From Chloroflexota bacterium (lineage in GTDB: Bacteria; Chloroflexota; Dehalococcoidia; JACQUA01): DNA of 64,000 nucleotides. A program made the translations under genes and the position numbers. Position 1 is the stretch's first letter, and every line of letters begins with the position of its first letter. Positions 40,354 to 62,225 of this stretch are shown here, one piece after another. The stretch covers positions 1-64,000 of the forward strand of contig JACQUA010000173.1 in assembly GCA_016210565.1 (NCBI GenBank), given 5' to 3'. The notes under the pieces were generated by a model. That model saw only the letters and a list, made by a program, of their open reading frames with translations. It searched no databases and was not told the origin of the DNA.

Positions 40354-43300
40354 CTATTCCTCGTCGCCCGCCTCGTCTTTCTCGCAATCGATTGGCTCGC
40401 CGGCGGGGCTTGTTGGCCTGATGAAGCTAAGATAATCATCTATCGCCCGGACGTGCATAGGGCTGAGGCCGTACAGACCGGCTACCGTCCTGTCCAACTC
40501 GGCTTCCAGATCCCGGAGCTTCTTCCCCGCAGGCGACCCGTGCAGGCGGCGCGAGATCTCGAACAGCGGCGCGAGTTCGGCTGGGACGGGATCGTTGGGC
40601 TGCGTCATAAGAGCCAGTAGCGCCTCCGGCACGGGTACCAGGCCCAGTACCCACGAATCGAAGTGCCTGTAGGCGCCGCGGTCCCTGCGAGAGAATGATA
40701 GACAAAAAAGCCGGACGGCGCTGGCGCTAAGGAAGCCGGCGAGGCACTCCCCCGTGGCCCTGTCGGGTACCGGGATCAAATACGCAGTGTCCAGGGCAAC
40801 CGTCAGACGTCGGCCACGCCCCGCGGGGAGGTACACACACCCCAGATCATCAGAGATCCGTTGCCAGACAACTTTGTGGCCAAGCTTCTCCGGCGAAACC
40901 CGGAAGATCTGCCAGATCGGCATGCCATCCCTGTAGTCGGACCGGCGGCGTAGGGCCGCCTCATGCCGGCTGAAGTACTCGCGGGCGCGAGGCGGCAGCT
41001 CTCTCCTTGGCTCCCCGGTGACATCATCGTGCGTCCAAATAAGATGGTCCCTTACTTCGTAGCCCCAGGCGTGGATGTTTTCTCCGCGGATGAGGGGCCT
41101 CAGAAGTTCTCTTTCGATGCGCGCCCGGAAGCCAGCGCGGTCGCTTTCCGGCAGACGGGCATCGTAGTACCCTTCGGCGTAAACTATTGCTTCGCCGGCG
41201 TTTTCGGTCGCCTCAACTCGCTTCACAACGAAGACATCGTTGAGCGATGTCTTGACCCCCATCATGGCATTGAAACCGGGGATCTCCCCGAGCAGCCGCC
41301 TCGCCCTGGGCGCGCCATTCGCCGAGGTCCTCCGGGCAGTCTGCATCAGCAGGATAGCTTCCCTGACCTCGGGCGGCGCCAGCGCCCAGGGGGACTCTTC
41401 GGTCTGGTTTAAGGGTCCGGTTTCCAGCGCGGGGGAAAGAATGGGGAGGTCCTTCTGCTGGGTTTGCCAGCTTTTGAAGGAGGCGGAGGGGCCGGCGACC
41501 GTAACCTGGACCTCGTGGCTTGCGGGAGCCTGGCCCTGTTCGAAGGCCAATATCAGGGGATAGTTGGTAGCGTCCTCGAACAATGTCCGAGCATGCAGGG
41601 AATAGTCGTGCAGCGCCAGTATCCTGGTATCCTTAACCAGGCTCTTGCGCAGGGCGTTGCCGTACAGGGCATGGATGACTTTGGACGTTATGACGAAGCT
41701 CAGTCTGCCATTTGGCTTGAGGAATTCCCGGCCGCGTTCCACGAAAGCAATGGAATAGTCCACCTGCCTGCCGAATCCCCTACCGATACCCCCGAGCGCC
41801 GCCCCCCGTTTCCATCCCGCGTCAACACAGACCTGATATTCGCTGAACAGCCGCGCCCTTATCTCAGGGGCGATATTGTGAATCCGCACCCACGGGGGAT
41901 TGCCCACGACAAAATCACATGATTGCCGCAGACCGTCCAGGCTCAGGGCGTTTCGCAGCAGCGGCAGCCAGCGCATGTCGCGCCTCCGGTTGTGGCGCTC
42001 GGCGATTCCGGCGAGAAAACTATTGATCGTTGTTTCATAGGCCAGGTAGTTTCTGGCGGAAACACCCTCCCAGAAGCGCGCCTTCACCGCCTCCGGGTCA
42101 ATGGGCGGGCGGAACAGGCTTAAGGTCTGACCCACCCGGTTCAGAAGGCCGTTCCAGTCGACGTCGCGGTGGTCCGGAAGCACGAACTCGCCCAGACCCG
42201 CTATGGCTACCTTGATGACCGGCCTCGCACCGGGAGCAGACAGGGCGCCGCGCGCCCTTCCCGAGCGCGCCCCCGGCATACGCGTGAGCGTCGGCGCCAG
42301 CCTGAGCAGAGAATCGGCCCAATACACGGGAATCTCGACCCGGCTGTCCGGGGACACCAGGTCGGCTATGGCCAGAATGTAGTTCACCCGGGCCATGGCC
42401 ACGGCAAAGGGGTGAATGTCCACGCCAATGATATTCCGGGTGATAAGACTCAGGGACTCGGACGTTCTCCCGCCCCGGCGAGCCCTGGCAATGGCGCGCA
42501 TAAGAAACGTCCCGGACCCGCAGGTTATGTCAGCCAGACGTTTGTCCGGGTCCCCCCGGTATTCCACGGCGTCCAGCGCCTCATCGACAACATCTGGCCG
42601 GGTGTAGAATTCGCCGAGCGCCCGGCGGGTGACCGGGTCAAAGAAACGCTGATAGACCAACCTCAAGAAATCCTCGGAGGCACCGAGCAGGTCAACGTCA
42701 TCCACGCCATCGGCGATGTCCAGCAACGCCGGACTCAGCGATGCTTCGGCGCTGCCGCTGTGCGCGGCGGCCTCAACGGGCCACAGGAAAACGTCTTCTT
42801 CGAAAACGCCCACCACTCCCGGCACGTAATGCTGCATCTCCCTCAGGGCCAGAACCGGGTGGCCGGATTTCTTGAGCACGTCCGTGACGCTGGCGTAGGG
42901 GGTGAGGCGCGTTTGAACGGCAACCCTGGTGAGCAGCAGTCGAAGAAGAAGAGAAAGGTAGGTCTCTATGATGAAAAGATATTGCTCGGTGTCCGATTCA
43001 TTTTCCCTGATGGTTATCCCCAGGGAAGCCGCAGAGCGACGCAGGTTGGCGCGAGCTTCACTGCTGACATTCGTCGCAGTGCTGTACAGACCCCGCCACA
43101 CCACGAAGGCTTCATCGATGATGCCGACAGCGACGCGAAAACTGGTGAACGCTTTCCACAGTTCAGCTACCATCTGGCCGGCGACTTCAGAGGCAGGACC
43201 CAGGCGATCGACAAAATCCTCGGGCGAGATCACGGCGCCCGCCAGCGACACAAGCCACGCTTCCAGGCGCGGCGCCGCAGCCGCCGCCGGTCCCCGGTGA

Positions 43301-43674
43301 AGAACAGACCCGTCTTCCGCCAGGAGTGCCAGTTCGCGGCCGTCGTAGGCCACTCCCCGGGCGGGTTTGCCGTCATGGCTGGCAGGGAACTCCAGGACAT
43401 ATCTGCGACACTGGGTGACGGCATCTTCAATCCCCGCGCCCCCTGGCGGGGGCAGCTTTACCTCAAATACGATGGCGCCAACTCTGGCATCTGGTATCCC
43501 GCGAACCAGGCGGTATTCGGACGCGACCCGCACCCCGCGCTCACGTAGCTGCTTGGACTCGAGGAACCGGTTGATAGCCTCGACAAAGTCCCCGCGCAGC
43601 GTGGCTTCATTCAGCCCGGCAGAGGCGGTTTCCAACTCCTTCAGAGGGCGGCTAAGTCGATAGTCGTCAAGCAT
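40354..43674 (-). CDS. Single-chain restriction-modification enzyme (nuclease + N6-adenine methyltransferase)
   Basis: The protein is 1106 residues from ATG 43674; GTG 43686 is an alternative. The N-terminal part shows a PD-(D/E)xK nuclease core (IPDARVGAIVFEVK, with D62, E71 and K73). In the middle lie GEFYTRPDVVD, the AdoMet motif ADITCGSGTFLMRAIARA at about 381-398, and NPPW at 592-595, in the gamma-class order for N6-adenine methylation. The C-terminal 400 residues probably form the target recognition domain. This is the layout of type IIG/IIL enzymes, in which one chain cuts and methylates. No partner subunit gene is adjacent. Confidence 0.8.
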   Translation of the reverse strand: MLDDYRLSRPLKELETASAGLNEATLRGDFVEAINRFLESKQLRERGVRVASEYRLVRGIPDARVGAIVFEVKLPPPGGAGIEDAVTQCRRYVLEFPASHDGKPARGVAYDGRELALLAEDGSVLHRGPAAAAAPRLEAWLVSLAGAVISPEDFVDRLGPASEVAGQMVAELWKAFTSFRVAVGIIDEAFVVWRGLYSTATNVSSEARANLRRSAASLGITIRENESDTEQYLFIIETYLSLLLRLLLTRVAVQTRLTPYASVTDVLKKSGHPVLALREMQHYVPGVVGVFEEDVFLWPVEAAAHSGSAEASLSPALLDIADGVDDVDLLGASEDFLRLVYQRFFDPVTRRALGEFYTRPDVVDEALDAVEYRGDPDKRLADITCGSGTFLMRAIARARRGGRTSESLSLITRNIIGVDIHPFAVAMARVNYILAIADLVSPDSRVEIPVYWADSLLRLAPTLTRMPGARSGRARGALSAPGARPVIKVAIAGLGEFVLPDHRDVDWNGLLNRVGQTLSLFRPPIDPEAVKARFWEGVSARNYLAYETTINSFLAGIAERHNRRRDMRWLPLLRNALSLDGLRQSCDFVVGNPPWVRIHNIAPEIRARLFSEYQVCVDAGWKRGAALGGIGRGFGRQVDYSIAFVERGREFLKPNGRLSFVITSKVIHALYGNALRKSLVKDTRILALHDYSLHARTLFEDATNYPLILAFEQGQAPASHEVQVTVAGPSASFKSWQTQQKDLPILSPALETGPLNQTEESPWALAPPEVREAILLMQTARRTSANGAPRARRLLGEIPGFNAMMGVKTSLNDVFVVKRVEATENAGEAIVYAEGYYDARLPESDRAGFRARIERELLRPLIRGENIHAWGYEVRDHLIWTHDDVTGEPRRELPPRAREYFSRHEAALRRRSDYRDGMPIWQIFRVSPEKLGHKVVWQRISDDLGCVYLPAGRGRRLTVALDTAYLIPVPDRATGECLAGFLSASAVRLFCLSFSRRDRGAYRHFDSWVLGLVPVPEALLALMTQPNDPVPAELAPLFEISRRLHGSPAGKKLRDLEAELDRTVAGLYGLSPMHVRAIDDYLSFIRPTSPAGEPIDCEKDEAGDEE

Positions 43675-43707
43675 GAATGGGACCACATGATTTCACGAGA
43701 TTGCTTA

Positions 43708-43984: not shown

Positions 43985-45049
43985 TCAGTCGCCGCCGCCA
44001 AAATACCTTCGCCGGAAGTACAACGCCACGTTCACCAGGCCGATGAGCGCCGGCACTTCCACCAGGGGACCTATCACCGCCGCAAAGGCCTGCCCCGACC
44101 CGATGCCGAAGACGGCCACCGCCACCGCAATCGCCAGCTCGAAGTTGTTGCTGGCGGCAGTGAAGGCGATGGTCGCCGTCCGGGGATAATCGGCGCCGAT
44201 TCTTTTGCCCATGTAGAAAGCTACCAGGAACATAGCCACGAAATAGATTAACAGGGGTATGGCGATACGGACCACGTCGAGGGGTAGCTGGACGATAAAC
44301 TCGCCTTTCAGCGAGAACATCACGATGATGGTAAAGAGGAGAGCGATCAGGGTGATGGGGCTGATTTTGGGGATGAACCGGGTCTCATACCATTGTTTGC
44401 CCTTAGCCCTGATCAACGTGAACCGCGTTATCATCCCGCCGAAGAAAGGGATACCCAGGTAGATGAACACACTCTGGGCGATCTGCCCGATGGTCACGTG
44501 GACCTCCGTGCCCCGGAGCCCGAACCATACCGGGACCACGGTTATGAAAACATAGGCAAAGATAGAGTAGAAGACCATCTGGAAGATGGAGTTGAAGGCG
44601 ACCAGCCCGGCGGCGTACTCCCGGTCGCCCTGCGCCAGGTCATTCCACACGATAACCATGGCGATGCACCGGGCCAGGCCGATCATGATGAGCCCTTCCA
44701 TGTACGCCGGGAAGGCGCGGAGGAATACGATGGCCAGGATGAACATCAGGATGGGGCCGATGACCCAGTTCTGTACCAGCGACAGCCCCAGTATACGAAA
44801 ATCGCGGAAGACCGGGCCCATTTCCTCGTATTTGACCTTGGCCAGGGGCGGGTACATCATGAGGATGAGGCCGATGGCGATGGGAATTGAGGTAGTATCC
44901 ACCTGCAACAGGGTGATGACCTTCGCCACCTGGGGGAAGAAATAGCCCAGACCGACTCCGATCGACATGGCCAGGAAGATCCACAGGGTGAGGAGGCGGT
45001 CAAGCCAAGCCAGCCGCCTCGGTGAATCACAGGGCTGTGACGTGCACAT
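43985..45049 (-). CDS. acr3: Arsenite efflux transporter ACR3
   Basis: The 354-residue protein has ten predicted membrane helices and ACR3 signatures: [15 protein letters not shown], a conserved transport cysteine in [19 protein letters not shown], and [10 protein letters not shown]. It extrudes As(III) across the cytoplasmic membrane using the ion gradient. GAGGAG precedes ATG 45049. It is the last gene of the arsR-led operon, after arsC, so arsenate reduced by ArsC can be exported. Confidence 0.95.
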
Positions 45050-45108: not shown

Positions 45109-45495
45109 TCAGCAATCCAGCAACCTGACCACCCTGGCCCGGATCTCGTCCCGAATTTCCCGCACCCTGTCGAGGGGTTTTCCTTTCGGGTCTTCCAGCC
45201 CCCAGTCTTCAGCCGGAACCAGGCTTGCCGGGCACACCCCTTCCACCCCGCACCCCATGGTGATGACCCTGGAAGCAGAATCGAGCGTGTCCTGAGTTAG
45301 CGATTTGGGCTTGTTCCCGCTTATGTCTATGCCCGCTTCGGCCATCACCGTGGCGACGGTTGGATCAACCCTGTCCGCGGGATCCGTTCCGGCCGAAATC
45401 GCTTTCGCGTTTCCCCGCGCAAGCTGATTGAAAAAAGCCTCCGCCATCTGGCTCCGCCCCGAGTTATGCACGCAGACAAACAGGACCGTTTTCAT
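45109..45495 (-). CDS. arsC: Arsenate reductase ArsC (low-molecular-weight phosphatase type)
   Basis: The 128-residue protein has the P-loop CVHNSGRS with C8 and R14, and a redox pair C82 and C88 in MGCGVEGVCP. This matches the thioredoxin-coupled ArsC type in which three cysteines act in turn. It reduces cytoplasmic arsenate to arsenite. The small thioredoxin-like gene 11 bases upstream is a likely electron donor and acr3 downstream exports the product. Confidence 0.95.
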   Translation of the reverse strand: MKTVLFVCVHNSGRSQMAEAFFNQLARGNAKAISAGTDPADRVDPTVATVMAEAGIDISGNKPKSLTQDTLDSASRVITMGCGVEGVCPASLVPAEDWGLEDPKGKPLDRVREIRDEIRARVVRLLDC

Positions 45496-45506: not shown

Positions 45507-45773
45507 CTATGTCCTCCTGAACCTTTCTTCCTTATCCAGGGCATTTACGACGAAAGTGGTCACTTCCGCCTTATTCGGGACTCTGCCCGAGCAGACCAGT
45601 TCTTCGTTGATGACAATGCCGGGTGTAGCCAGGAGCGGGTAACTCATTATCTTCTTTATGTCCCTGACTTCTTCGATGCGAGCCTCTACCGCCAGATCTG
45701 TGATCACCTCTCTGATCGTCTGTTCTACCTGGCGGCAACGGGAACAACCCGGTCCCAAAACTTTGATATCCAT
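45507..45773 (-). CDS. Thioredoxin-like small redox protein
   Basis: The 88-residue protein has the active-site motif GCSRC (C10 and C13) and the cis-proline region LLATPGIVIN. This is the pattern of 'redox-active disulfide protein 2', a glutaredoxin-sized thioredoxin-fold family often found with arsenic or metal genes. AAGGAGC precedes ATG 45773. It probably recycles ArsC or serves the upstream permease. Confidence 0.88.
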   Translation of the reverse strand: MDIKVLGPGCSRCRQVEQTIREVITDLAVEARIEEVRDIKKIMSYPLLATPGIVINEELVCSGRVPNKAEVTTFVVNALDKEERFRRT

Positions 45774-46377: not shown

Positions 46378-47409
46378 CTATGTTAGTGCTCCAAACAGGT
46401 AGCCGGACACGGTGGCCATGACCACCACGAGACCAACATAAGTTAGAGCTTTCTTCGTTCCCATGATGTTGCGGACGACGAGCATGCTCGGCAGGGACAG
46501 GCTCGGACCCGCCAGCAACAACGCCAGGGCAGGGCCCCTGCCCATGCCCAGGTCCAGGAAAGCCTTGACTATTGGTACCTCTGTCAGCGTGGCAAAGTAC
46601 ATCAGCGCCCCGAAGAAAGATGCGATGAAATTGGCGGACAGGCTGTTGCCCCCCACAAAGCCGGTCACCGAGGACTCCGGGATGACCGCCTCAATAATTC
46701 CGGCGGCAAATACCCCGATTAGAAGCCAGGGCGTTATGAGGCGCACGAAATGCCAGGTCTCTTTCATCCAGTCCCGTAACTCGCCCCCGGTGAACCAGCG
46801 CCACAGCATGACCACGAGAATGCCCAGTAGGCCACCCGTGACAACCCATCTCTGCGCAGCGGCAGCGACCAGGATTCCCACCAGAACGGCAAAGAAACCA
46901 GCCTGCCGCCACAGGCTCTTGCTCTGGTCGGTCGCCAGTATGGCAAAGGCTCTGGCGTCCTTCAGCGACTCGTCCTTGCGATAAATGGCAGCCATCAACA
47001 GACCGATGAGCACGGAGAAGACGATAGCTCCTGCGGCCCGGGCGATGCCCAGGTCATAGCCCAACAAATTGGCCGAATATACAATTGCCAGCACGTTGAT
47101 GGCCGGGCCCGAGTAAAGAAAGGCGACCGCCGGGCCTAACCCCGCGCCCCTTTTATAGATGCCGCCGAAAAGCGGCAGCACCGTGCAGGAGCAGACGGCC
47201 AGGATCGCCCCGGAAACCGAGGCCACGCTATAGGAAAGGTATTTCCTCGCCTGGGGACCGAAATACTTCAGAACCGCCCCCTGCGAGATGAATGCAGCAA
47301 TGGCGCCGGCTATAAAGAAGGCAGGCACGAGACAGGTAAGCGCGTGCGCCGACAGGTATTCTTCCAGGGCGTTGAGTCCAGGGCGAAAGAGTCCGTTGAT
47401 GATGCCCAA
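46378..47409 (-). CDS. Permease of the ArsP/SO_0444 (DUF318) family
   Basis: The 343-residue protein (TTG start) has about nine membrane helices. The CSCTVLPLFGGIYKRGAGLG segment contains the paired cysteines C73 and C75 expected for metalloid-binding permeases. A second glycine-rich repeat, TEVPIVKAFLDLGMGRGPAL, follows. Family members export trivalent organoarsenicals (ArsP) or metal ions. Context (arsR upstream, arsC and acr3 downstream) favours an arsenic compound. The start codon is uncertain because no good ribosome site is visible. Confidence 0.88.
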   Translation of the reverse strand: MGIINGLFRPGLNALEEYLSAHALTCLVPAFFIAGAIAAFISQGAVLKYFGPQARKYLSYSVASVSGAILAVCSCTVLPLFGGIYKRGAGLGPAVAFLYSGPAINVLAIVYSANLLGYDLGIARAAGAIVFSVLIGLLMAAIYRKDESLKDARAFAILATDQSKSLWRQAGFFAVLVGILVAAAAQRWVVTGGLLGILVVMLWRWFTGGELRDWMKETWHFVRLITPWLLIGVFAAGIIEAVIPESSVTGFVGGNSLSANFIASFFGALMYFATLTEVPIVKAFLDLGMGRGPALALLLAGPSLSLPSMLVVRNIMGTKKALTYVGLVVVMATVSGYLFGALT

Positions 47410-47695: not shown

Positions 47696-48067
47696 TTAGC
47701 TTTTTCGCCCTGAACGCATTCTTTCGGCGCAGCCCGGACCCACCCGCTCGGCTTTTCTGAGCCGCTCCAGGTCCGCCCTGGCCACCGGGTTCCTTTCGAT
47801 GGCGGCGGCCAGAGTCTCCACCAGGCGCACCGCGTGGCTTTCCATCTCATCCTTGCTAACGGAGTACAGGGCCCAGGAACCCACTTTCCTCAGCCGCAGG
47901 AAGCCGGCGTCGTACAGGATATTCAGGTTCCGGGAAGCCCTGGTCTGAGAGATATCCAGCGCCTGCATGACCTCGCAGACGCAGCACTCCCTTTCCAGCA
48001 GAACGTTCAGAATTCTGAGCCTGGTTTCATCTGACAGCGCCTTGAAATTGTTTACCAGGTTGCGCAT
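47696..48067 (-). CDS. arsR: ArsR-family transcriptional repressor
   Basis: The 123-residue protein has the ArsR winged helix (FKALSDETRLRILNVL, then DISQTRASRNLNILYDAG). The arsenite-sensing cysteines are in ECCVCEV (C28, C29, C31). As(III) binding there releases the repressor from DNA. It heads the operon that continues with the permease, the two small proteins, the redox protein, ArsC and ACR3. An inverted repeat overlapping its own promoter lies at 48088-48113. It is divergent from the molybdoenzyme locus, so it may control both directions. Confidence 0.95.
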   Translation of the reverse strand: MRNLVNNFKALSDETRLRILNVLLERECCVCEVMQALDISQTRASRNLNILYDAGFLRLRKVGSWALYSVSKDEMESHAVRLVETLAAAIERNPVARADLERLRKAERVGPGCAERMRSGRKS

Positions 48068-48087: not shown

Positions 48088-48113
48088 TATATATGCACAT
48101 ACGCGCATATATA
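48088..48113 (-). promoter_or_regulatory. Probable ArsR operator
   Basis: TATATATGC at 48088-48096 and GCATATATA at 48105-48113 form a perfect inverted repeat with an 8-base centre. AT-rich dyads of this spacing are typical ArsR/SmtB sites. It starts about 20 bases upstream of arsR and touches the -10 of its promoter. Confidence 0.7.
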
Positions 48114-48161: not shown

Positions 48162-48215
48162 GGGTCAATTTTTCATTGATTATTCATTGACCCGGTACTA
48201 TCGGATGGGTAGAAT
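48162..48215 (+). promoter_or_regulatory. Promoter and dyad of the molybdoenzyme locus
   Basis: TTGACC at 48187-48192 and TAGAAT at 48210-48215 are 17 bases apart, a good sigma70 promoter divergent from arsR. The -35 is inside an inverted repeat, GGGTCAAT at 48162-48169 and ATTGACCC at 48186-48193, which could bind a regulator. The leader to the ATG at 48404 would be about 180 bases, which is long. Confidence 0.6.
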
Positions 48216-48403: not shown

Positions 48404-48877
48404 ATGAAAATCGCCTGTCTTCATGTCGCCGTGGGAAGAAGCCGCCTGGTATTTTATTCCGCGGCCATCCTGTCAACCATTCTTCTCCTGACAGCGGTGG
48501 GCTGTGAAAAAGAGCCGCCTCCGACGCCCTCCGCCACGGCCCAGGTCCGTTTGCCCACCACCCCGGCCACAACGCCAACTCCGGTCGCCACACCAAAGCC
48601 CCCAGCCGTATCGACGCCAGCTCCTACGGTGGCGCCCAAGCCGGCGCCCGTGCTCCAGATAGGAATGGGCGTAAACGAACGCTTCCATGAAATACATACC
48701 AAGAAGCTCAACCTGGCCTGTGATTTCTGCCACTCGGCAACCTCTCAAACTTACAAAGATCCCCTGGCTCAGGCGACCAACCCGGCGGACCCCCGCTCAT
48801 GCCTGGGCTGTCACAAAGAGGGCGGCGCCCAGCCATTCTATGGCGACAACTGGCAGAAGGCAAAGGTAAGTAAATAA
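48404..48877 (+). CDS. Diheme c-type cytochrome lipoprotein
   Basis: The start at ATG 48404 follows GAGGAGG. The 157-residue protein has a signal with lipobox LTAVGC (C34), then a Pro/Thr/Ala-rich linker to about residue 83. A small heme domain follows with CDFCH (C106, C109, H110) and CLGCH (C133, C136, H137). It should be an exported, membrane-tethered diheme electron carrier. It is 12 bases upstream of the molybdopterin enzyme and so is likely its redox partner, linking it to the membrane electron pool in place of an NrfD or NrfH subunit. Confidence 0.88.
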   Translation: MKIACLHVAVGRSRLVFYSAAILSTILLLTAVGCEKEPPPTPSATAQVRLPTTPATTPTPVATPKPPAVSTPAPTVAPKPAPVLQIGMGVNERFHEIHTKKLNLACDFCHSATSQTYKDPLAQATNPADPRSCLGCHKEGGAQPFYGDNWQKAKVSK

Positions 48878-48889
48878 GGAGAACCTCGA

Positions 48890-51310
48890 ATGGAAATAAC
48901 CCGACGGGAATTCATCAAATCTGCCGGAACTTCGGCCACCGCCCTGGCTGTTATCGGGCCGAACATGGAATTCAGGGCCATCAAGGATTCTCAGATCGGC
49001 CGTCAAGAAGGCGAAAAATGGGTCGCCACGGGTTGCACGGGCTGCGTCGGCTGGTGTCCCCTGATGGTGAAGGTAGTGAATGGTAAGGCAGTGCGGATCA
49101 AAGGTAATCCCAATTCCAACTGGACGCAAGGAAAACTGTGTCCCCGCGGCTTGCTGAATTTGCAGGTCACCTATGACCCGGACAGGGTCAAGAAGCCACT
49201 CAGGCGCACCAATCCGGTCAAAGGCAGGGACGAGGACCCTAAATGGATCGAGATAAGCTGGGATGAGGCGATCGGCGCCATTGCCCAGAAAATGAGGGAA
49301 CTCAGGGACAGGGGCACGCCCGAGAGGTTCGCCCTGTTCCGCGGCCGGTACAATCCCATGGACGCGGATATCCTCTATGGGAGACTGGTCAAAGCCTACG
49401 GCAGCCCCAATTCCATATCCCACAGCGCCCTTTGCGCCGAGACCACGAAATCCGGTTACTGGTATGCGGCCGGCCGGTACGCCTACAACTCCTTTGACTT
49501 CGCCAACACCAACTATATTTTGAGTTTTGGGGTCAACTTCCTCGAGGCCCATCGTCCGGTCACCGGACTGTTAGCCAGTTGGGCCAAAGGCCGCAGGGGA
49601 AGGGCTATCCGGCCCAAGACGGTGGTCATCGATCCCAGATACTCCGTTACGGCCTCCCGGGCCGACGAATGGCTTCCGATAAATCCGGGGACGGATGGCG
49701 CTCTGGCCCTGGGAATCGCTCACACGATACTGGTGGACGGCCTGTGGGATAGAAAATTCGTCGGGGATTTCAAAGAGGCTTCTGGCAAGTTCGTTGCCGG
49801 CAAGGTGGTAGACGATAAAGACTGGGAGGATGCCAGCACCACGGGCCTGGTGAAATGGTGGAACCTGTTCCTCAAGGATTTTGCTGCGGAAAGGGCCGCC
49901 CAAATCACCGGAATCCCCGCCTCCACTATCACCCGGCTGGCCCGGGAATTCGCCACCACGAAACCCGCCGTGACGCTCCGAAGCCGCGGCAGTGAAGCCT
50001 GGCCGGGAAACGGCACGTACAACTCCTATGCCATCTATTCATTGAACGGGCTGGTGGGGAGTGTGGAGGTAAAAGGCGGCATTAACCATAGCGCCAGCGT
50101 CAGTTATTCGCCGGAACCGATCAAGCTGGAGCTTGATGCGGTGGCAGAAACCGGGGGGAAGAAGCCGCGCATCGACGAAAAAGGCACCAAGAAATTCCCC
50201 CAGGCTGACGTCATCACGAACAACGCGGCGGATAACATTATCAGAGAGTTCCCCTACCCTATCGAGATGGCGCTTGGCTACTGGAACAACTTTACTTTTT
50301 CCGCCCCGGGGAGCAAACGCTGGGAAGAAGCCCTCAAGAAGATTCCTTTCCTGGTGCATCACACTACCCACATCAGTGAATGGAGCCAGTATGCCGACAT
50401 CGTTCTCCCCGCCAGAACGTACATCGAAAAGTGGAGCGCGGGGAACCCGGCGGGCGGCTCCAGCGTGGAGAACGGAGTGACGCTTTATCAGCCGGTGATA
50501 GATCCTCTCTACGATACAAAATGCGAGGTAGACATCGCCATCGCTCTCGGCAAAGAGCTGGGGAAATACTACCCATCCATCAAGCGGTCCTTCGATGGCA
50601 TAGGCGGGACCTACGGTGACACGCCCGAGGGGTATGCCAGGGTTCGGACTAAGGCTTTCTGGGAGAAGCTCCCGGGAGGCTGGGACGAGTTCAAAGCCAG
50701 AGGAACGGTGAACGTAAGCCCCTACAAATTCACCTGGCAGTTTCCCACGCCCTCGAAGAAGTTTGAGTTCTACTCAGGGACCCTGAAGAAGCTGTTTACG
50801 GACAAGAAGGTGACGGACAGCGACCTGGCGACCTACAACATCAAGGCCCGCGGCGACCTGGTGTATGTGCCGCATCACGAAGACCCCATCTTCATCGGGG
50901 ACGCTGCTGAGTTCCCTCTGGTCCTGATAACTTATAAGAATGCTTTGAGCCAGGAGGGCAGAAGCGCCAATACCCCCTGGGCCCAGGAAATGTACCTGAA
51001 CCCCCTGTACGGGCAGGGATGGATGAACCTGGCGGAAATCAACCCTGAGACGGCAAAAAGATTTGGCGTCAACGACGGGGAGGCGGTCTTCGTCGAATCG
51101 GTGGTCGGTAAAATCAAAGCTACAGCCAGGGTTTTCGAAGGGATACACCCCGACGTCGTTGCCATGTGCTACGGCCAGGGGCACTGGGCCTACGGCAAAT
51201 GGGCGAAGGACAAAGGGGCCAATCCCAACGAAATTACCGGGGTCATGTACGAGAATATCACGGGGATGGCGGCCTATTTCAATACCAGGGTAAAGGTCTA
51301 CAAAGCATAA
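48890..51310 (+). CDS. Molybdopterin oxidoreductase, candidate respiratory arsenate reductase (ArrA-like)
   Basis: The 806-residue DMSO-reductase-family protein has a twin-arginine signal (TRREFIK) for folded export. The [4Fe-4S] ligands are spaced C49-x2-C52-x3-C56-x27-C84, the spacing I recall for ArrA. Residues matching the ArrA active site as I remember it are RGRY at 151-154, H178, S179, the molybdenum ligand C182 in HSALCAETTK, K187 and Y199. Context supports arsenate respiration: a divergent arsenic operon, a ferredoxin subunit, a TorD chaperone and a downstream PhnD/kinase/regulator set. Alternatives are an ArxA-like arsenite oxidase or another reductase of the polysulfide/arsenate lineage. 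The family is certain; the substrate is inferred. Confidence 0.9.
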   Translation: MEITRREFIKSAGTSATALAVIGPNMEFRAIKDSQIGRQEGEKWVATGCTGCVGWCPLMVKVVNGKAVRIKGNPNSNWTQGKLCPRGLLNLQVTYDPDRVKKPLRRTNPVKGRDEDPKWIEISWDEAIGAIAQKMRELRDRGTPERFALFRGRYNPMDADILYGRLVKAYGSPNSISHSALCAETTKSGYWYAAGRYAYNSFDFANTNYILSFGVNFLEAHRPVTGLLASWAKGRRGRAIRPKTVVIDPRYSVTASRADEWLPINPGTDGALALGIAHTILVDGLWDRKFVGDFKEASGKFVAGKVVDDKDWEDASTTGLVKWWNLFLKDFAAERAAQITGIPASTITRLAREFATTKPAVTLRSRGSEAWPGNGTYNSYAIYSLNGLVGSVEVKGGINHSASVSYSPEPIKLELDAVAETGGKKPRIDEKGTKKFPQADVITNNAADNIIREFPYPIEMALGYWNNFTFSAPGSKRWEEALKKIPFLVHHTTHISEWSQYADIVLPARTYIEKWSAGNPAGGSSVENGVTLYQPVIDPLYDTKCEVDIAIALGKELGKYYPSIKRSFDGIGGTYGDTPEGYARVRTKAFWEKLPGGWDEFKARGTVNVSPYKFTWQFPTPSKKFEFYSGTLKKLFTDKKVTDSDLATYNIKARGDLVYVPHHEDPIFIGDAAEFPLVLITYKNALSQEGRSANTPWAQEMYLNPLYGQGWMNLAEINPETAKRFGVNDGEAVFVESVVGKIKATARVFEGIHPDVVAMCYGQGHWAYGKWAKDKGANPNEITGVMYENITGMAAYFNTRVKVYKA

Positions 51311-51323
51311 GGAGGTATATGAC

Positions 51324-51968
51324 ATGGCCAAATACGCAATGTTAATCGACCTCGACCGGTGTCTGGCGTGTCAGGCCTGCGTCATCGCCTGCAAGACGGA
51401 AAACAACGTGCCCGATTCAACCCCCGACACCTTCAAGGGGCGCAAGGCCAACTTTCGGACCAGGGTGGTGCCCCTGGCCCACTCGGGAAAATACCCCAAC
51501 CCCGCCGTCCAGATCTTCCCTGTGCTTTGTAATCAGTGTGAGAATCCGCCCTGCGTGGCCGCCTGCCCCACCGGGGCAACCTATCAGCGGGATGACGGTA
51601 TCGTCCTGGTAGACTGGGAGAAATGCATGGGCTGCAAGTATTGCATGGCGGTATGTCCCTACGGGCAAAGAGGCTTTGTTCAACTGGATGAAGCCAGGGA
51701 CTATCACAACCCCGAAGCGATTCCCCCGGGCAACCAGCAGTCCCGGCCCCCCAAAGGCAAGGTAGATAAGTGCACTTTTTGCGCCCACCTGGTAGAGCGT
51801 GGCGAGCTTCCCGCCTGCGTTACCGCCTGCCCGGCCGACGCCCGGGTATTCGGGGATGCGACCCAGGTTGGCGGGGTAATAGCCGGTTTGCTGGCCAGCC
51901 GCAACAGCCAGGTCCTGAGACCGGACTTCGGCACCCAACCCCGCGTCTTCTATCTTCTGAAGGGATAA
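51324..51968 (+). CDS. Four-cluster ferredoxin subunit (DmsB/ArrB-like)
   Basis: The 214-residue protein has four cysteine groups for [4Fe-4S] clusters: CLACQACVIAC, CNQCENPPCVAAC, CMGCKYCMAVC and CTFCAHLVERG...CVTAC. This is the standard electron-transfer subunit of DMSO-reductase-type enzymes, passing electrons between the diheme cytochrome and the catalytic subunit. It begins 13 bases after the catalytic gene, with AAGGAGG before it. There is no signal peptide, so it would be co-exported with its TAT partner. Length fits ArrB. Confidence 0.92.
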   Translation: MAKYAMLIDLDRCLACQACVIACKTENNVPDSTPDTFKGRKANFRTRVVPLAHSGKYPNPAVQIFPVLCNQCENPPCVAACPTGATYQRDDGIVLVDWEKCMGCKYCMAVCPYGQRGFVQLDEARDYHNPEAIPPGNQQSRPPKGKVDKCTFCAHLVERGELPACVTACPADARVFGDATQVGGVIAGLLASRNSQVLRPDFGTQPRVFYLLKG

Positions 51969-51971: not shown

Positions 51972-52621
51972 GTGAAGCAGTATCTGGAAAGACTGGCCGC
52001 GACCGCTGACATCTGCGGGTTGCTTTCACTGTGCTACGCCTCACCGGCAGATGAGGCGTTCAACGACGAGTTGCCAGCGCGGCTGACGCGTGCTCTTCGA
52101 GCCGCTGGTTTCCTGCACATTGAGGATGAAGCCGCCCGGATGAGTCGCTGCTTCGGCGACAGCAAAGACGATCTGGACCTGAAGCTGGAATACACTCGCC
52201 TGTTCAGGGGACCGGTGAAAGCGGCGGCCTATCCTTACGAATCCATGAATGTTGAAGGCGAGGTAATGGCTAAGTCGACGTTGAGCGTGCTGGACTGCTA
52301 CAGGGAAGTTGGAGTGGCGGTGAGCGAGTCATTCAACGACTTGCCCGATCACATAACCGTGGAACTCGAGTTTGTCCGGTACCTCTGCCTGAAAGAGATG
52401 GCCGCCATCAAAGGCGGCAACGTCGAAGACGCCTGTCCTTCAGGAAAGCCCGCCACTCCTTCGCCCGGGACCATCTTCTGAAGTGGGCGCACCGGTTCAC
52501 CGGCCAGATAGAACACAACACAACTGCCCCTTTCTATCTCGCCCTGGCCAGGATCACCCACGCTTTCCTTCTTTCCGACTTCAGCATAGCAACGGAAAGC
52601 CAGACTGCCCCGGCCTGCTGA
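51972..52621 (+). pseudogene. TorD/DmsD-family chaperone with a frameshift
   Basis: From GTG 51972 the frame encodes a TorD-like helical chaperone (LDLKLEYTRLFRGP, DLPDHITVELEFVRYLCLKE) but diverges after NVEDA near 52431 and stops at 52481. In the -1 register the sequence continues as LSFRKARHSFARDHLLKWAH and ends APFYLALARITHAFLLSDF... at TGA 52619-52621. That matches the C-terminus of the second TorD here (61008-61736). One missing C in a GCC(C)TG context explains it. TorD proteins hold the apo-molybdoenzyme until cofactor insertion and guard its TAT signal. The gene is either recently inactivated or the base is a sequence error. Confidence 0.85.
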
Positions 52622-52624: not shown

Positions 52625-53785
52625 ATGGTTTTTGGTACACATCTGCTCACAAAGGCTTTTGAAAGCCTCCACGGTGGGGGCATAACCTGGAACAAGTTCC
52701 TGTGCTCCCGCTACCGTTGGCGCCGTTCCACCTGCCGTTCCTGCGTGCAGGCGTGTCCTGAAAAAGCCCTGGCCTTCAACGGCACTCTCGCTATTGACAC
52801 GGAGAGGTGCAACGGTTGCGGTGTATGCCTGGCCCAATGTCCCAACGGGGCGCTGCACAGCGCCAGGGTCGGAGACCATGCCCTGCTGACCAGGATGACA
52901 CTTTTCCTGTCCGAGAACCCGCAAGTCACCTTGCGTCTGGCGTGCCGGGAGCGGCCTCCAGACCAGAATACGTTCACCTTATCCTGCCTGTCGCGGGTAA
53001 CCACCCCCCTGCTTGCCGGCCCGTTTTGTGCCGCCGTGCGCCAGGTAGAAATAGCCAGACCACATTGCGAAGGTTGCCACGGCCGCCTGGACAGCTACAG
53101 CCTGGAAAAGACCGTTTCCCTGGCACAGGGCATCTGCGAGATGGCCGGCCTCGGCAACCGGGCCATAGCCCTCGGCGTTGAGTGGCCAGGCGGCCACGAA
53201 ACGCCAAAAGAAAGGGCAATCTCGCGGCGCGGGGCAGTGAGAATCCTCAGAACCGAGATCTTGAATACGTTGTCCTCGATCTTCGTCCGGCCCGGGGACG
53301 GAAAGAATCTGCCCCATTGGTCCCGGCAGGCAAATGTCTCAAGGGACCTGCTGTTAGCGCTGGTGCAGGCTCTCGGCTGCCGGAGGCCCGTAACCGTAGA
53401 CCGGGAGGGGTTGCCCCTTGCCGAGGTCGAGATATCCCCCGCTTGCGTCGGCTGCACCGTCTGCTCCACCCTGTGCCCTGCGGGGGCCATCGAGCTGCTC
53501 GAACAAGAGAATTCCATCTTTCTATCTTTCCTTCCTCACCTCTGTACCGCCTGCGGTATTTGTATTGAGGCCTGCTTGCCAAAAGCCATTTCTTTCAAGC
53601 CCCAGTTTGATCTCGGGAAACTGGCCAGCCGCCAAACAGTGTCACTGGGCCGTTTGCCCCGGGTGAAATGCACCGGCTGCCAGGCTGACTTCTATTCCGC
53701 CGGGGACGAACTCTGCCTGGCCTGCCGCGCACAGAACGGCGCTCGCCCTCGTTTGCTGTGGGAATCTCATCGGTCGAAGGGTTAG
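52625..53785 (+). CDS. Multi-cluster Fe-S protein with C-terminal cysteine ribbon
   Basis: The 386-residue protein has an N-terminal two-cluster ferredoxin domain (CRSCVQACPEKAL, CNGCGVCLAQCP). A middle domain with CEGCHGRL follows, then a second two-cluster domain (CVGCTVCSTLCPAGAIEL, CTACGICIEACLPKA). A C-terminal zinc-ribbon-like pair, CTGC and CLAC, ends the protein. No signal is seen, so it is likely cytoplasmic. It is placed between TorD and MobB, and an analogous Fe-S protein with a cysteine ribbon sits between TorD and MobB in the second locus (59386-61011). It may deliver electrons or sulfur in enzyme maturation. No named family is recognised. Confidence 0.8.
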   Translation: MVFGTHLLTKAFESLHGGGITWNKFLCSRYRWRRSTCRSCVQACPEKALAFNGTLAIDTERCNGCGVCLAQCPNGALHSARVGDHALLTRMTLFLSENPQVTLRLACRERPPDQNTFTLSCLSRVTTPLLAGPFCAAVRQVEIARPHCEGCHGRLDSYSLEKTVSLAQGICEMAGLGNRAIALGVEWPGGHETPKERAISRRGAVRILRTEILNTLSSIFVRPGDGKNLPHWSRQANVSRDLLLALVQALGCRRPVTVDREGLPLAEVEISPACVGCTVCSTLCPAGAIELLEQENSIFLSFLPHLCTACGICIEACLPKAISFKPQFDLGKLASRQTVSLGRLPRVKCTGCQADFYSAGDELCLACRAQNGARPRLLWESHRSKG

Positions 53786-54361
53786 ATGGTTCCGGCTATT
53801 TGTTTCACCGGCAAGTCGGGATCCGGCAAGACGACGCTCATCGTCCGCGTCGTTGAAGAGTTGAAACGCCGGAGGTTCCGGGTAGCCGTCATCAAGCACG
53901 CTCCCCATGGCTTTGAGCTAGACAAGCCTGGCAAAGATAGCTGGCGCTTCTCGTCGGCCGGCAGCGACACCGTAGCCCTGGTGTCTCCCGGGGGAATCGC
54001 CGTGATGGCCCGCCTGGACGGTGACAGGTATTTACAGACCGTCATCTGCCAGATGTCCCTGAGTAATGACATAGTCCTCATTGAAGGTTGTAAGGGGTTC
54101 CACCTCCCCAAGGTCCTGGTGTCCTGCGGAGAGGAGGGCTCGCCCCTGTCGAATCCGGGAGATAATCTCATCGCGATTGTGTCGGACAGAGTGTACGACT
54201 ACCCTGTTCCCCGCTTCAGTCCCGCCGAAGCGGGACGCCTGGTTGAACTACTGGAGAGCCTTATTCATGCCTCGAAAGACCAGGGAAACGGCGGGGCACC
54301 TCACCCCATGGCGCAACTGCGGGAAACCACCGGGCAGCCCGAAGAACTGGCGCCCTTCTGA
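53786..54361 (+). CDS. mobB: Molybdopterin-guanine dinucleotide biosynthesis protein MobB (copy 1)
   Basis: The 191-residue protein has the P-loop TGKSGSGKTTL near the N-terminus, the MobB stretch VAVIKHAPHGFELDKPGKDS and the DIVLIEGCKGF motif. MobB binds GTP and helps MobA make the guanine dinucleotide form of the cofactor used by DMSO-reductase-family enzymes. Its ATG directly abuts the stop of the Fe-S protein gene, so the two are translationally linked. A second mobB lies at 58713-59228. Confidence 0.92.
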   Translation: MVPAICFTGKSGSGKTTLIVRVVEELKRRRFRVAVIKHAPHGFELDKPGKDSWRFSSAGSDTVALVSPGGIAVMARLDGDRYLQTVICQMSLSNDIVLIEGCKGFHLPKVLVSCGEEGSPLSNPGDNLIAIVSDRVYDYPVPRFSPAEAGRLVELLESLIHASKDQGNGGAPHPMAQLRETTGQPEELAPF

Positions 54362-54904: not shown

Positions 54905-55870
54905 ATGCCCATGACGAAGCCTCCTCGAACGTACCGGGTCCTGCTGATACTTGCTCTGCTGGCCATCATTTCGGTCTTGGCCGGCTCAGGCTGCGGCGGA
55001 GACACCTACACGCGGGTCAACCTGCAGAAGAAGTACCCCCGCGAACCTGTCTCCGGTTTGACCGGCGCCGCCATTACTACCGGCCAACCGGCGCTCCGGG
55101 TGGGCATAGCCGGGGTGATTTCCCCGGCCATGACCCTGGAAAGCTACCAGCAACTGCTCCAGTACATGGGCAAGACGCTGGGCCGGCCGGTGCAACTGGT
55201 ACAACGCCCGACCTACAGTGAGATGAACGAGCTGATAAAGAACCGGCAGGTGGAAGTGGCTTTTGTCTGCAGCCTGGCCTACGTGGAAGGCAAGTCCGAC
55301 TTCGATATGGAGCTGCTGGCGGCGCCCCAGGTGAGAGGGGCAATAACTTACAATTCGTACCTCATCGTTCCCGCCGACAGCACCGCGGCCCAGCTTGAAG
55401 ACCTGAGGGGCAAGGTCTTCGCCTTCACCGATCCCCTTTCCAACAGCGGCCGGCTGGCGCCTACCTATGAGCTGGCCAGGATTCGTGAAAAGCCGGAGAC
55501 CTTCTTCAGGAACTACATCTTCACCTACAACCACGACTATTCGATCCAGGCAGTCGCCGACAGGCTTGTGGACGGGGCGGCGGTGGATAGCCTGATCTAT
55601 GACTATCTGGCCTCGGTAAACAGCCCCCTTATCAGGAAGACAAAAGTCATCGCTTCCTGGGGACCCTACGGCATACCCCCCGTCGTGGTCCACCCCGGTC
55701 TGGACATCTCGCTGAAGACTGAATTGAAGGAGTTCTTCCTCAGTCTCCATACCGAGGCGGAGGGACTGAACATACTGGATTCCCTGCTCATCGACCGCTT
55801 TGTGGAAGTGAGTGACGGGATTTTCGACTCACTTCGTCAGATGAAGCAGCGGCTTGCCGGAGCCCAATGA
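54905..55870 (+). CDS. PhnD-like phosphate/oxyanion-binding lipoprotein
   Basis: The 321-residue protein (ATG 54905; 54911 is an alternative) has a signal ending LAGSGCGG (probable lipoprotein C30). It is a PhnD/TransferrinBP-like type II binding domain: ALRVGIAGVISPAMTLESY, NRQVEVAFVCSLAYVEG and VFAFTDPLSNSGRL. PhnD relatives bind phosphonate, phosphite or other oxyanions; AioX and similar proteins of this fold bind arsenite for a sensor kinase. It overlaps the kinase gene by 4 bases (ATGA), so it is most likely the sensing subunit rather than part of a transporter. Confidence 0.87.
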   Translation: MPMTKPPRTYRVLLILALLAIISVLAGSGCGGDTYTRVNLQKKYPREPVSGLTGAAITTGQPALRVGIAGVISPAMTLESYQQLLQYMGKTLGRPVQLVQRPTYSEMNELIKNRQVEVAFVCSLAYVEGKSDFDMELLAAPQVRGAITYNSYLIVPADSTAAQLEDLRGKVFAFTDPLSNSGRLAPTYELARIREKPETFFRNYIFTYNHDYSIQAVADRLVDGAAVDSLIYDYLASVNSPLIRKTKVIASWGPYGIPPVVVHPGLDISLKTELKEFFLSLHTEAEGLNILDSLLIDRFVEVSDGIFDSLRQMKQRLAGAQ

Positions 55871-57825
55871 AACCCAAACAGGTCTGGTCTGGATTCTGGG
55901 ACGTCGCCGGTTCGGTGAGCATTCGGACCAAGATAATGGGCATCGTGGCTTCCCTGGTGCTCGGCTTCGGCCTGTTTGTCGGCTGGTACATCCCTCGCAG
56001 CGAGACCCGGTATTTGACCGAGCAACTGGAGGAAAGGGGCCTGACCATTGCCAGGAGCGTCGCCGCCGTGGGACAGGACATGGCGCTAACCAACAACCAG
56101 TTCGGACTCTACATGCTGGCCAGGAACACCCTGGCCAGCAATAAAGACGTTCTTTATGTTTTCATTACGGACAGCGAGGGAGACCCCCTGGTGCATACTT
56201 TCGAAGGAGGATTCCCGGTCGACCTCCTGGAATTGAGCCGTTCGCACCGCAGCGAGAACCCCCGTGTTCTGCCCCTGGTCACCGAAACGCGCAAGATCAG
56301 AGACATAGCCGTCCCCATCCTGGGCAGCCGGGTAGGAGTAGTGCACGTAGGGCTGGACGAGTCCGCCCTCTTCGCTTACAGCACGGAACATTCGCGGCAT
56401 ATACTGACCTTCACCCTCATCGCTCTCCTTCTCGGCGGCGCCTTCGCTTACTGGCTGGCGACGATCCTTACCCGGCCCATCCTCAGCCTGGAACAGGCTA
56501 CCAGGATGGTCGCCAGCAACAGCGACTTTCCCTGGCAAGCCCCCCCCTGGGCGAGGGACGAAATAGGCCGCCTGGGGTCATCTTTCAACGAGATGACCCG
56601 GAAAGTGGCGGAAAGGACCCGGGAGATCATCGAGAAGAACAAGGAGTTGACCACCCTCAACGCCCTGTCCCAGGCCATCAGCCGTCCCCTGGACCTGGGG
56701 GAAAAGGCATCCTCGGCGTTGAAGTCCATCTCGGAAGGCCTGGAACTCAAAGCCGCCTGGTTCTTTCTCCTCAATCCCCAGAGTCAGAAGCTGGAACTGC
56801 TGTGCCAGGAAGGGGTCCGCATCCCCATCACACCCGGCGCGGCTGAAGAACTCGCCGGGGAGCTGGAAAAAGGCAGCCCGGCGATCCTGGAGAAAGTTGG
56901 AGACGGCCGCCTTCCTTTGAGCGGGCCGCTTCTGGTGCAGGAGGGGCTGGTCCCGGTGGCCCTGGTGGCTCTCAGGTCGGGGCGCCGTTTTCTCGGGTTC
57001 CTGGCGCTGTCCCGGGCCGGCAAACCCTTTGCCTCCAGCGAAGTCCATCTCCTCAGGGCCATCGGAGAGCAACTCGGCGTGGCGGTGGAGAACTTCATTC
57101 TGTGGCAGGAACTGAAGCATAAGGAGAACCTGCGGACGCAGTTGCTGGCCAAGGTGATATCGGCCCAGGAGGAGGAGCGGAAGCGCATCGCCCGGGAGTT
57201 GCACGACCAGACCAGCCAGTCCATCACCTCGCTCATGGTGGGGCTCAAGGTCACCGAGGAATCCGGCGACGTCGGTGTGATAAAGCAGAGAATAGGCGAA
57301 CTGAGGACGCTGGCATCCGATACCCTGGAAAAGGTGCGCGACCTGTCTATCGGGCTCCGGCCCAGCGTCCTCGACGACCTCGGACTGGCTCCGGCCCTGA
57401 ACCGCTACATAAAAGACTATGCCCGCAAGACCGGTCTTTCCACCCAGTTCCAGAGCGTGGGCCTCGACGGCCTGCGCCTCCGGCCCGAGGTGGAAACAGC
57501 CATCTACCGCGTGGTGCAGGAAGCCCTCACCAACGTGGCCCGGCACGCCGCGGCAAAACACGTCGGCGTCATCCTGGAGCGGTCCCGGAAGAAGCTGCGG
57601 GCCATAACCGAGGATGACGGCAAAGGCTTCGACGTCGGCAGGATCATGTCCAGTCCCAACCTGGAAATGAGATTGGGCCTCTTTGGAATGGAGGAACGCA
57701 TCTCCTTGATCGGTGGCAGCCTGACCATCGAATCAGCGCCGGGAAAAGGGACCACGGTCTACGTCGAGGTCCCCCTCGAAGAAAACAGAGCCTCAGATGA
57801 ACAAAACCAGGATACTGCTGGTTGA
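55867..57825 (+). CDS. Sensor histidine kinase (NarX-like, HAMP-GAF-HisKA_3)
   Basis: The 652-residue protein has a first membrane helix at about 20-40, an extracytoplasmic sensor region to about 175, a second helix (LTFTLIALLLGGAFAYWLAT) and a HAMP linker. A GAF-like domain follows at about 275-405. The HisKA_3 dimerisation domain has H446 in RIARELHDQTSQS, and the C-terminal ATPase has EDDGKGFDV. This architecture is that of NarL-partner kinases. The gene overlaps both the PhnD-like gene upstream and the regulator downstream, so all three are coupled. The stimulus is probably carried by the bound PhnD-like protein. Confidence 0.93.
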   Translation: MKPKQVWSGFWDVAGSVSIRTKIMGIVASLVLGFGLFVGWYIPRSETRYLTEQLEERGLTIARSVAAVGQDMALTNNQFGLYMLARNTLASNKDVLYVFITDSEGDPLVHTFEGGFPVDLLELSRSHRSENPRVLPLVTETRKIRDIAVPILGSRVGVVHVGLDESALFAYSTEHSRHILTFTLIALLLGGAFAYWLATILTRPILSLEQATRMVASNSDFPWQAPPWARDEIGRLGSSFNEMTRKVAERTREIIEKNKELTTLNALSQAISRPLDLGEKASSALKSISEGLELKAAWFFLLNPQSQKLELLCQEGVRIPITPGAAEELAGELEKGSPAILEKVGDGRLPLSGPLLVQEGLVPVALVALRSGRRFLGFLALSRAGKPFASSEVHLLRAIGEQLGVAVENFILWQELKHKENLRTQLLAKVISAQEEERKRIARELHDQTSQSITSLMVGLKVTEESGDVGVIKQRIGELRTLASDTLEKVRDLSIGLRPSVLDDLGLAPALNRYIKDYARKTGLSTQFQSVGLDGLRLRPEVETAIYRVVQEALTNVARHAAAKHVGVILERSRKKLRAITEDDGKGFDVGRIMSSPNLEMRLGLFGMEERISLIGGSLTIESAPGKGTTVYVEVPLEENRASDEQNQDTAG

Positions 57826-58456
57826 CGACCACGCCGTCCTGCGGGCCGGCTTGAGATTGCTGCTGGACAACCAGCCTGACATGGAGGTAATCGGTGAAGC
57901 CGGGGACCCGGCTGATGGCATCGCGCAGGCTAAAGCCGACAAACCGGATATCGTCCTCATGGACCTGAGTTTCCCCCGCGGCGATGGCATAGCAGCGATC
58001 AAGACCATACGAGAAACCCAACCCGAGGTGAAAGTCATCGCCCTGACCATGCACGAAGACGAAAGCTACCTCCGGCCCGTTTTGCAGGCCGGCGCCTCGG
58101 GTTACGTACTGAAACGCGCCGCCGACACCGAACTCATCAGCGCCATCAGGGCAGCCGTCAGGGGCGAGGTCTTTATCTACCCATCTCTGACCAGGATCCT
58201 TCTGGAGGATACCCTGGGGAAGCCGAAGAAGCCCTCCCCTGAAGAAGCAGTGGATATGGACCTTCTGAGCCAGCGGGAAAAAGAGGTCCTCAAGCTCATC
58301 GCCCGGGGGCACTCCAACCGGGAGGTGGCCGAGATGCTCTTCCTCAGCGTCAAGACGGTGGACACCTACAAAGCCCGCCTCATGGAGAAACTCGGGCTCG
58401 AAAGCCGGGTTGACCTGGTAAAATACGCCCTGGAACACGGCCTCCTCGAACGGTAG
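57797..58456 (+). CDS. NarL/LuxR-family response regulator
   Basis: The 219-residue protein has a receiver domain with acidic pocket (LLVDDHAVLR) and phosphorylated D56 in IVLMDLSFPRGDG. The NarL-type helix-turn-helix contains LSQREKEVLKLIARGHSNRE and LSVKTVDTYKARLMEKLG. It overlaps the kinase gene by 29 bases. It should activate the neighbouring molybdoenzyme genes; the dyad at 48162-48193 is a candidate target. Confidence 0.95.
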   Translation: MNKTRILLVDDHAVLRAGLRLLLDNQPDMEVIGEAGDPADGIAQAKADKPDIVLMDLSFPRGDGIAAIKTIRETQPEVKVIALTMHEDESYLRPVLQAGASGYVLKRAADTELISAIRAAVRGEVFIYPSLTRILLEDTLGKPKKPSPEEAVDMDLLSQREKEVLKLIARGHSNREVAEMLFLSVKTVDTYKARLMEKLGLESRVDLVKYALEHGLLER

Positions 58457-59228: not shown

Positions 59229-59242
59229 GGTAGTTCCTTCCT

Positions 59243-59366
59243 CCCCCTTTCGCAAAAGGGGAGAGAAATGCCTTCCCCTTTGAAAAAGGGGGACTGAGGG
59301 GGATTCCCTCTGGCGCCAAAGGCCTTTTCAAATCCCCCTTAATCCCCCTTTTTCAAAGGGGAAGAG
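59243..59366. repeat. CCCCCTTT...AAAGGGG hairpin cluster
   Basis: Two or three related hairpins (CCCCCTTTCGCAAAAGGGG, CCCCTTTGAAAAAGGGGG and CCCCCTTTTTCAAAGGGG) are packed in 124 bases between mobB copy 2 and the HdrA-like gene. A single copy occurs at 29961-29978. Confidence 0.65.
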
Positions 59367-59385
59367 GGACTGCAGCTTGGCCGCC

Positions 59386-61736: not shown

Positions 61737-61774
61737 TGACCAATACAAACCGATTAGATGGAGCCGGATCGGGC

Positions 61775-61882: not shown

Positions 61883-61932
61883 GATTATGCGTCGTCTCTT
61901 ATCGCGTTTGTACTGGAGGGCCTTTCCCCGGA

Positions 61933-62211: not shown

Positions 62212-62225
62212 GACGGACCTCCCTT

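Follow-up and report, generated by a model that had tools for sequence, protein, structure and literature searches.

A predicted respiratory arsenate reductase system from a sister clade of ArrA in a Dehalococcoidia genome

The 64,000-nucleotide stretch of contig JACQUA010000173.1 analyzed here (the window) belongs to a Chloroflexota bacterium of the class Dehalococcoidia, known from a metagenome-assembled genome (MAG; G000) of 6.53 Mb in 419 contigs (completeness 94, contamination 6.4%). Genes for a dihaem cytochrome lipoprotein, a catalytic molybdopterin subunit (A) and a ferredoxin (B) lie together on the plus strand, spaced 12-13 bases apart in the list of open reading frames (ORFs). An original prediction, made from the letters alone, took these three genes (48404-51968) for a candidate respiratory arsenate reductase beside a divergent operon of arsR, arsC and acr3. 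That operon is present, and also includes a permease and an ArsE-like thioredoxin. The locus extends further than predicted, as genes for a chaperone (D), an iron-sulfur (FeS) protein, MobB, and an ArrX-type sensor, kinase and regulator (the XSR module) carry it to position 58456 (Table 1). We compared it with 80 related loci of named relatives of the catalytic protein.

The catalytic protein begins with a twin-arginine translocation (Tat) signal (TRREFIK) and has the cluster motif C49-x2-C52-x3-C56-x27-C84, exactly the spacing first read. RGRY occupies residues 151-154, followed by H178, S179, C182, K187 and Y199. When aligned to Shewanella sp. ANA-3 ArrA (6cz7_A), all seven pocket residues are identical to R165, Y166, H189, S190, C193, K198 and Y210 (chain positions 125/126, 149, 150, 153, 158 and 170, plus 40 for ANA-3 numbering), and thus coincide with the positions listed in the prediction. 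The one-residue offset that it reported arises from a single extra residue in the window protein between RGRY and the His (NPMDAD vs SHIN-D). Almost every ArrA row of the family alignment has these same pocket residues; they are not conserved in PhsA, DmsA or the host's own paralogues, and RGRY is not conserved in ArxA. Because of this distribution, we judge from the alignment that the pocket match to ArrA is no chance effect. The combination RGRY-H-S-C-K-Y is present in the window protein and its close relatives, in L025 and in canonical ArrA rows (Asn replaces Lys in one of the latter), and ArxA rows have GRGWG at the RGRY position. The published marks are (R/K)GRY for ArrA and XGRGWG for ArxA (PMC6549141). 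The host's two nearest paralogues were considered as further arsenate reductases and rejected, as neither has RGRY or the pocket Lys: one (C113:64225-66651) has GRN and Pro in their place, and the copy on C390 has lost most of the pocket.

The best PDB match of the catalytic protein is ANA-3 ArrA (2e-179), followed by polysulfide reductase (6e-58), and its NCBIfam profile scores are 669 bits for ArrA (NF041714) vs 305 for PhsA. An AlphaFold2 model of the chain without cofactor (predicted local distance difference test score, 86) superposes on ANA-3 ArrA with a template modelling (TM) score of 0.91 and a root-mean-square deviation of 2.2, vs a TM score of 0.74 for polysulfide reductase; by predicted fold as well as by sequence, its closest solved relative is this ArrA. 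The ferredoxin is of ArrB size (214 aa), as predicted, and reads as 16 Cys in four groups, as in ArrB. Its profile scores are 192 bits for DsrO, 164 for TtrB and 161 for ArrB, which make it a generic beta subunit of the complex iron-sulfur molybdoenzymes.

Phylogenetic placement used a quick tree of 69 MopB proteins (the 80 named relatives, thinned, with host paralogues, Cereibacter and Sulfuricella plasmid ArxA, PhsA, DmsA and others) and a careful maximum-likelihood tree of 46 rows. In the latter, the window protein forms a clade at 100/100 with L020, L021, L022 and the Methanoperedens protein L024; L023 and L026 also join this window clade in the quick tree. Together with L025 (from a Firmicutes MAG) and a group comprising L027, L103 and L104, the window clade joins canonical ArrA at 100/100, with ArxA outside. 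Canonical ArrA, to which the window protein has about 42% identity, is a 100/100 clade of its own on a stem of 1.1 substitutions per site, and the window protein is not inside it. The predicted ArrA affinity therefore stands as far as the side of the tree is concerned, the protein not being placed outside ArrA/ArxA, but not as membership of the characterized ArrA clade. Because the protein scores below the curated ArrA cut-off and lies outside that clade, we assign it to a sister clade of ArrA, not to ArrA as characterized. The approximately unbiased (AU) test neither favors nor rejects a tree in which the window clade is the direct sister of canonical ArrA, with L025 and the L027 group branching outside the pair (p-AU 0.27). 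E. coli PhsA pairs with the host paralogue L004, distant from the window protein. A polysulfide or thiosulfate reductase identity was ruled out by score, tree and fold.

An Arx-like arsenite oxidase, which would oxidize arsenite and hand the electrons to the dihaem cytochrome, has to be weighed here. ArxA is the next-nearest group, and the loci of Cereibacter azotoformans ORIO (L131) and Sulfuricella denitrificans skB26 (L132) resemble the window in encoding B, B', D, XSR and ars genes; the cytochrome partner could act as electron acceptor. They differ in having XGRGWG (PMC6549141), not RGRY, and an NrfD subunit that has no adjacent counterpart in the window, and their ArxA proteins show 32-39% identity and form a separate clade. 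A tree constrained to unite the window clade and ArxA is worse by 165 log-likelihood units and is rejected (p-AU 4e-6). An ArxA identity is thus ruled out by motif, tree and AU test.

Members of the window clade occur in four of 393 genomes drawn from the host's class (G000, G010, G027 and G041), canonical-clade ArrA in one of the 393 (G039), and the window clade again in two of 34 genomes (G397 and G773) of the family of Methanoperedens L024. This rare and scattered occurrence suggests horizontal transfer. The full arsenate pocket is retained in every checkable member, which argues against use of an ArrA-like scaffold for another oxyanion or sulfur substrate (antimonate, selenate, polysulfide or thiosulfate). 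That possibility derives from the depth of the branch, the level of identity to canonical ArrA, the many other MopB enzymes of the host genome, and L027, L103 and L104, Chloroflexota proteins of the same larger group in which almost none of the pocket residues remain and the substrate has probably changed; because of this loss, the scaffold appears to have changed use at least there. The ars genes, ArrX-type sensor and arr-type neighbors at several loci also speak against it, and we consider it very unlikely.

Evidence for arsenate sensing comes from the XSR module. The sensor matches ArrX (6x6b, 8.7e-57) ahead of AioX (3.6e-40) and PhnD (2e-9) in the PDB, and its pocket residues Y104, C122, Y149, S179, S181, H210 and D228 correspond to all seven of the AioX family (Y88, C106, Y131, S161, S163, H192 and D210). 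These residues are identical across AioX, ArxX and ArrX, and would equally suit an Arx-like oxidase. The sensor loop (VGIAGVISP) is instead of the ArrX type (VAVSSMISP; ArxX, LTPVFLDHD), without the Val-Phe-Leu of AioX and ArxX. Arsenate binding was shown for ArrX, and arsenite binding for AioX and ArxX (PMC5908839). The response regulator lacks the AAA+ domain of ArxR and AioR, a domain also absent from ArrR of Firmicutes and Chrysiogenes (PMC5908839). With loop, best match and regulator all pointing away from it, we regard arsenite oxidation as very unlikely.

The window arr genes have the same set of neighbors as canonical arrA in Mesobacillus selenatarsenatis SF-1 (L041) and in other Bacillota. 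Shared with L041 are genes for the thioredoxin-like protein, permease, ArsR, D, FeS protein and XSR. The loci L032 and L043 likewise encode A-B-D, ArsR, the thioredoxin-like protein, permease, and ArrX with a kinase and a NarL/FixJ-type regulator, and L032 also has an FeS protein like that of the window. These three Bacillota loci differ in that their A subunits belong to the canonical ArrA clade and no dihaem cytochrome is encoded upstream. Within the window clade, the L021 locus (from another genome) adjoins homologues of acr3, arsR and the thioredoxin-like and permease genes. The ArrX-type sensor and arr-type gene set together are the strongest evidence for sensing and handling of arsenate, and the XSR module is located outside the interval of the original prediction.

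The cytochrome has a lipobox (TAVGC), a Pro/Thr linker and the haem motifs CDFCH and CLGCH. Both CxxCH motifs and the upstream H95 and H98 are kept in four aligned cytochromes, and the two His are plausible distal haem ligands. As predicted, this gene precedes A and no NrfD is nearby. A dihaem cytochrome gene is directly upstream of A in all six Chloroflexota clade members with readable upstream DNA (the window, L020, L021 (also L100), L022, L102 (G041) and L126 (G399); L023 starts inside A). No ORF with two CxxCH motifs was found directly upstream of A among the canonical arr loci scanned, and no NrfD homologue near the locus of any Chloroflexota clade member, the window included. NrfD homologues do occur near many canonical loci, and Methanoperedens L024 encodes one between B and D. 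A related dihaem cytochrome lies between B and D at an Anaerolineae MAG locus with canonical-clade ArrA (L035:6207-7890), and a decahaem cytochrome is encoded downstream in the clade member L026.

We estimate a probability of roughly 80% that the locus encodes a respiratory arsenate reductase system that works like ArrA, as a deep-branching variant. Observed are the genes and their order, the pocket, the phylogeny, the similarity of fold, the ArrX-type sensor and the conservation of the cytochrome gene; the substrate, the direction of the reaction, the route of the electrons, the regulation and any gain of energy are predicted as follows. The lipoprotein sensor X would bind arsenate outside the membrane, and kinase S and regulator R would relay the signal to switch on the operon of cytochrome, A, B and D. 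Subunit A would carry molybdenum-bis(molybdopterin guanine dinucleotide) and one 4Fe-4S cluster, and would be exported with B by the Tat route after maturation by chaperone D (and MobB). Starting from the quinol pool, electrons may reach the membrane-anchored dihaem cytochrome through an unlinked quinol oxidase, and then pass via the four 4Fe-4S clusters of B to the Mo in A, where arsenate held by R153, Y154, H178, S179, C182, K187 and Y199 would be reduced to arsenite. ArsR, Acr3 and ArsC would handle arsenite and arsenate entering the cell. The quinol oxidase could be supplied in trans, because genes of the NapC/NrfH and NrfD families occur elsewhere in the host genome.

Several points weigh against this interpretation. 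The operon encodes no quinol oxidase. ArrA-type enzymes can run in either direction in vitro, and for the window enzyme we infer the direction. The catalytic protein (669 bits) falls short of the NF041714 equivalog cut-off of 1600 bits, which is also missed by the G039 ArrA (1131), a protein from the same class in the canonical ArrA clade. Finally, the host genome is a MAG whose contamination is estimated at 6.4%. The missing quinol-oxidizing membrane subunit, with cytoplasmic arsC and acr3 also present, would likewise fit a reduction of arsenate at the cell surface that conserves no energy and is either a side reaction or a means of detoxification. Against this, respiratory systems typically combine Tat export with a cytochrome of their own and a sensor system of the ArrX type, and NrfD and NapC/NrfH-family genes are available elsewhere in the genome; we assign such non-respiratory reduction a very small probability. 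More tentative than respiratory arsenate reduction itself, and in our view rather doubtful, is the further idea that the clade represents a separate arsenate respiration complex. In place of NrfD or CymA, its dedicated partner would be a dihaem cytochrome anchored in the membrane, and arsenate reduction would draw on a pool of surface cytochromes; the complex would have been exchanged between Dehalococcoidia and methane-oxidizing Methanoperedens with a change of partner.

ANA-3 ArrAB (PDB 6cz7) resembles the predicted enzyme in fold, RGRY, the seven pocket residues, the FeS motif and a four-cluster B, and differs in sequence (about 38-42% identity), the window protein belonging to the sister clade. 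ANA-3 Arr is fed by the quinol dehydrogenase CymA, whereas in the window a dihaem lipoprotein gene precedes A. The XSR module, present in the window, is reportedly absent from gammaproteobacterial arr (PMC5908839). The protein of the Ca. Methanoperedens nitroreducens MAG (L024) and its near relative L158 belong to the same sister clade, with 60% identity and the full pocket, and acr3 and XSR are encoded alongside A at L024; unlike the window, this locus has NrfD between B and D, no dihaem cytochrome and two XSR sets. The archaeal arsenic island (L024:8299-22442) runs from ArsR and acr3 through A, B, NrfD and D to two X-S-R sets in a row. A second MopB (L125) follows, which is on the ArxA side of the tree with GRNRG and with H, S, C, K and Y kept.

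The original prediction regarded arsenate respiration as little described in such organisms. The novelty for the organism is smaller than this implied, as a putative respiratory arsenate reductase was reported in 2016 from the Dehalococcoidia single cell DEH-C11 (PMC4959651) and, in 2023, four arrA of cold-seep Chloroflexota (PMC10060404). The DEH-C11 protein is described as a Tat MopB from the same class adjoining arsR and an arsenite transporter; beta and gamma subunits were reported for it, whereas the window has no gamma subunit. ArrA and ArxA relatives in Methanoperedenaceae, including a deep branch next to ArrA/ArxA, were described in 2020 (PMC7327174). What appears to be new, relative to the published descriptions of DEH-C11 and of the ASW-3/Acetothermum deep branch (Leu et al.), is the delimitation of a sister clade with intact pocket, arr-type neighborhood and conserved cytochrome. 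Arsenate respiration releases arsenic into groundwater. Surveys of arrA probably under-count arsenate reducers among Chloroflexota and methane-oxidizing archaea, because they are based on canonical sequences and use profile cut-offs that the window clade misses. As a near outgroup of canonical ArrA with its pocket intact, the clade is also useful for studying the split between arsenate reduction and arsenite oxidation.

Table 1. Features of the arsenic locus in the window.
Feature	Position	Strand	Evidence or remark
acr3, arsenite efflux transporter	43985..45049	-	TIGR00832 462 bits, over cut-off 282.8
arsC, cytoplasmic arsenate reductase (detoxification)	45109..45495	-	TIGR02689 95 bits, below cut-off
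ArsE/MTH895-family thioredoxin-like protein	45507..45773	-	TIGR00412 90 bits, over cut-off 62
SO_0444/SaoE-type permease	46378..47409	-	NF033936 120 bits, below cut-off; homologues adjoin other arr loci
arsR, metalloregulator	47696..48067	-	NF033788 80 bits, over cut-off 55
Inverted repeat TATATATGC-N8-GCATATATA adjoining arsR	48088..48113		Possible ArsR operator
Inverted repeat GGGTCAAT-N16-ATTGACCC	48162..48193		Possible regulator site
Dihaem c-type cytochrome lipoprotein	48404..48877	+	Cytochrome_C7 23.6 bits, just under cut-off
Catalytic molybdopterin subunit, 806 aa, ArrA sister clade	48890..51310	+	Tat signal, RGRY, full arsenate pocket
ArrB-like ferredoxin subunit, 214 aa, four 4Fe-4S motifs	51324..51968	+	Homologue at 80/80 related loci
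TorD/NarJ-family chaperone (ArrD-like)	51972..52481	+	PF02613 79 bits; homologue at 69/80 related loci
386-aa protein, multiple 4Fe-4S sites, distantly like ArxB'/B2	52625..53785	+	62 bits to Sulfuricella arxB2 region; homologues at 20/80 related loci
mobB, molybdopterin-guanine dinucleotide biosynthesis	53786..54361	+	TIGR00176 113 bits, over cut-off 76
ArrX-like periplasmic oxyanion-binding lipoprotein, PhnD-family	54905..55870	+	Best PDB match ArrX 6x6b
ArrS-like sensor histidine kinase, sCache-HAMP-GAF-HisKA_3-HATPase	55867..57825	+	Homologues adjoin canonical arr loci
ArrR-like NarL/FixJ-type response regulator without AAA+ domain	57797..58456	+	PF00072, PF00196

Two inverted repeats were identified between arsR and the cytochrome gene. 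A leftward sigma-70-like promoter (48139-48111) is located by the arsR-side repeat. The GGGTCAAT-N16-ATTGACCC repeat overlaps a rightward sigma-70-like promoter (48187-48215) and is the single such site within the window; this candidate regulator site was not found at related loci.

A second molybdoenzyme island (L010), which ends about 260 bases after arrR, occupies 58713-64000 of the window on the minus strand and continues to C113:74937. Its genes encode, in order, MobB, a 541-aa FeS protein, a TorD-like protein, NrfD, an FeS subunit and a MopB paralogue that keeps the pocket His, Ser, Cys and Tyr, with Pro in place of Lys and RN in place of RY. The continuation encodes another MobB, FeS protein, TorD, NrfD, FeS subunit and an 866-aa MopB. 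MopB proteins of the second-island type are also present in other Dehalococcoidia (L105, L106 and L111). In the host genome, the query matches 97 segments in dozens of MopB genes, unusually many for a single genome (to be read with the 6.4% contamination). Also encoded in the window, at 40354-43686 on the minus strand, is a 1110-aa protein with an NPPW motif that, read by eye, resembles a large restriction-modification methyltransferase. About a dozen ORFs of 360-400 aa each run in the same direction at 1921-22785 on the plus strand.

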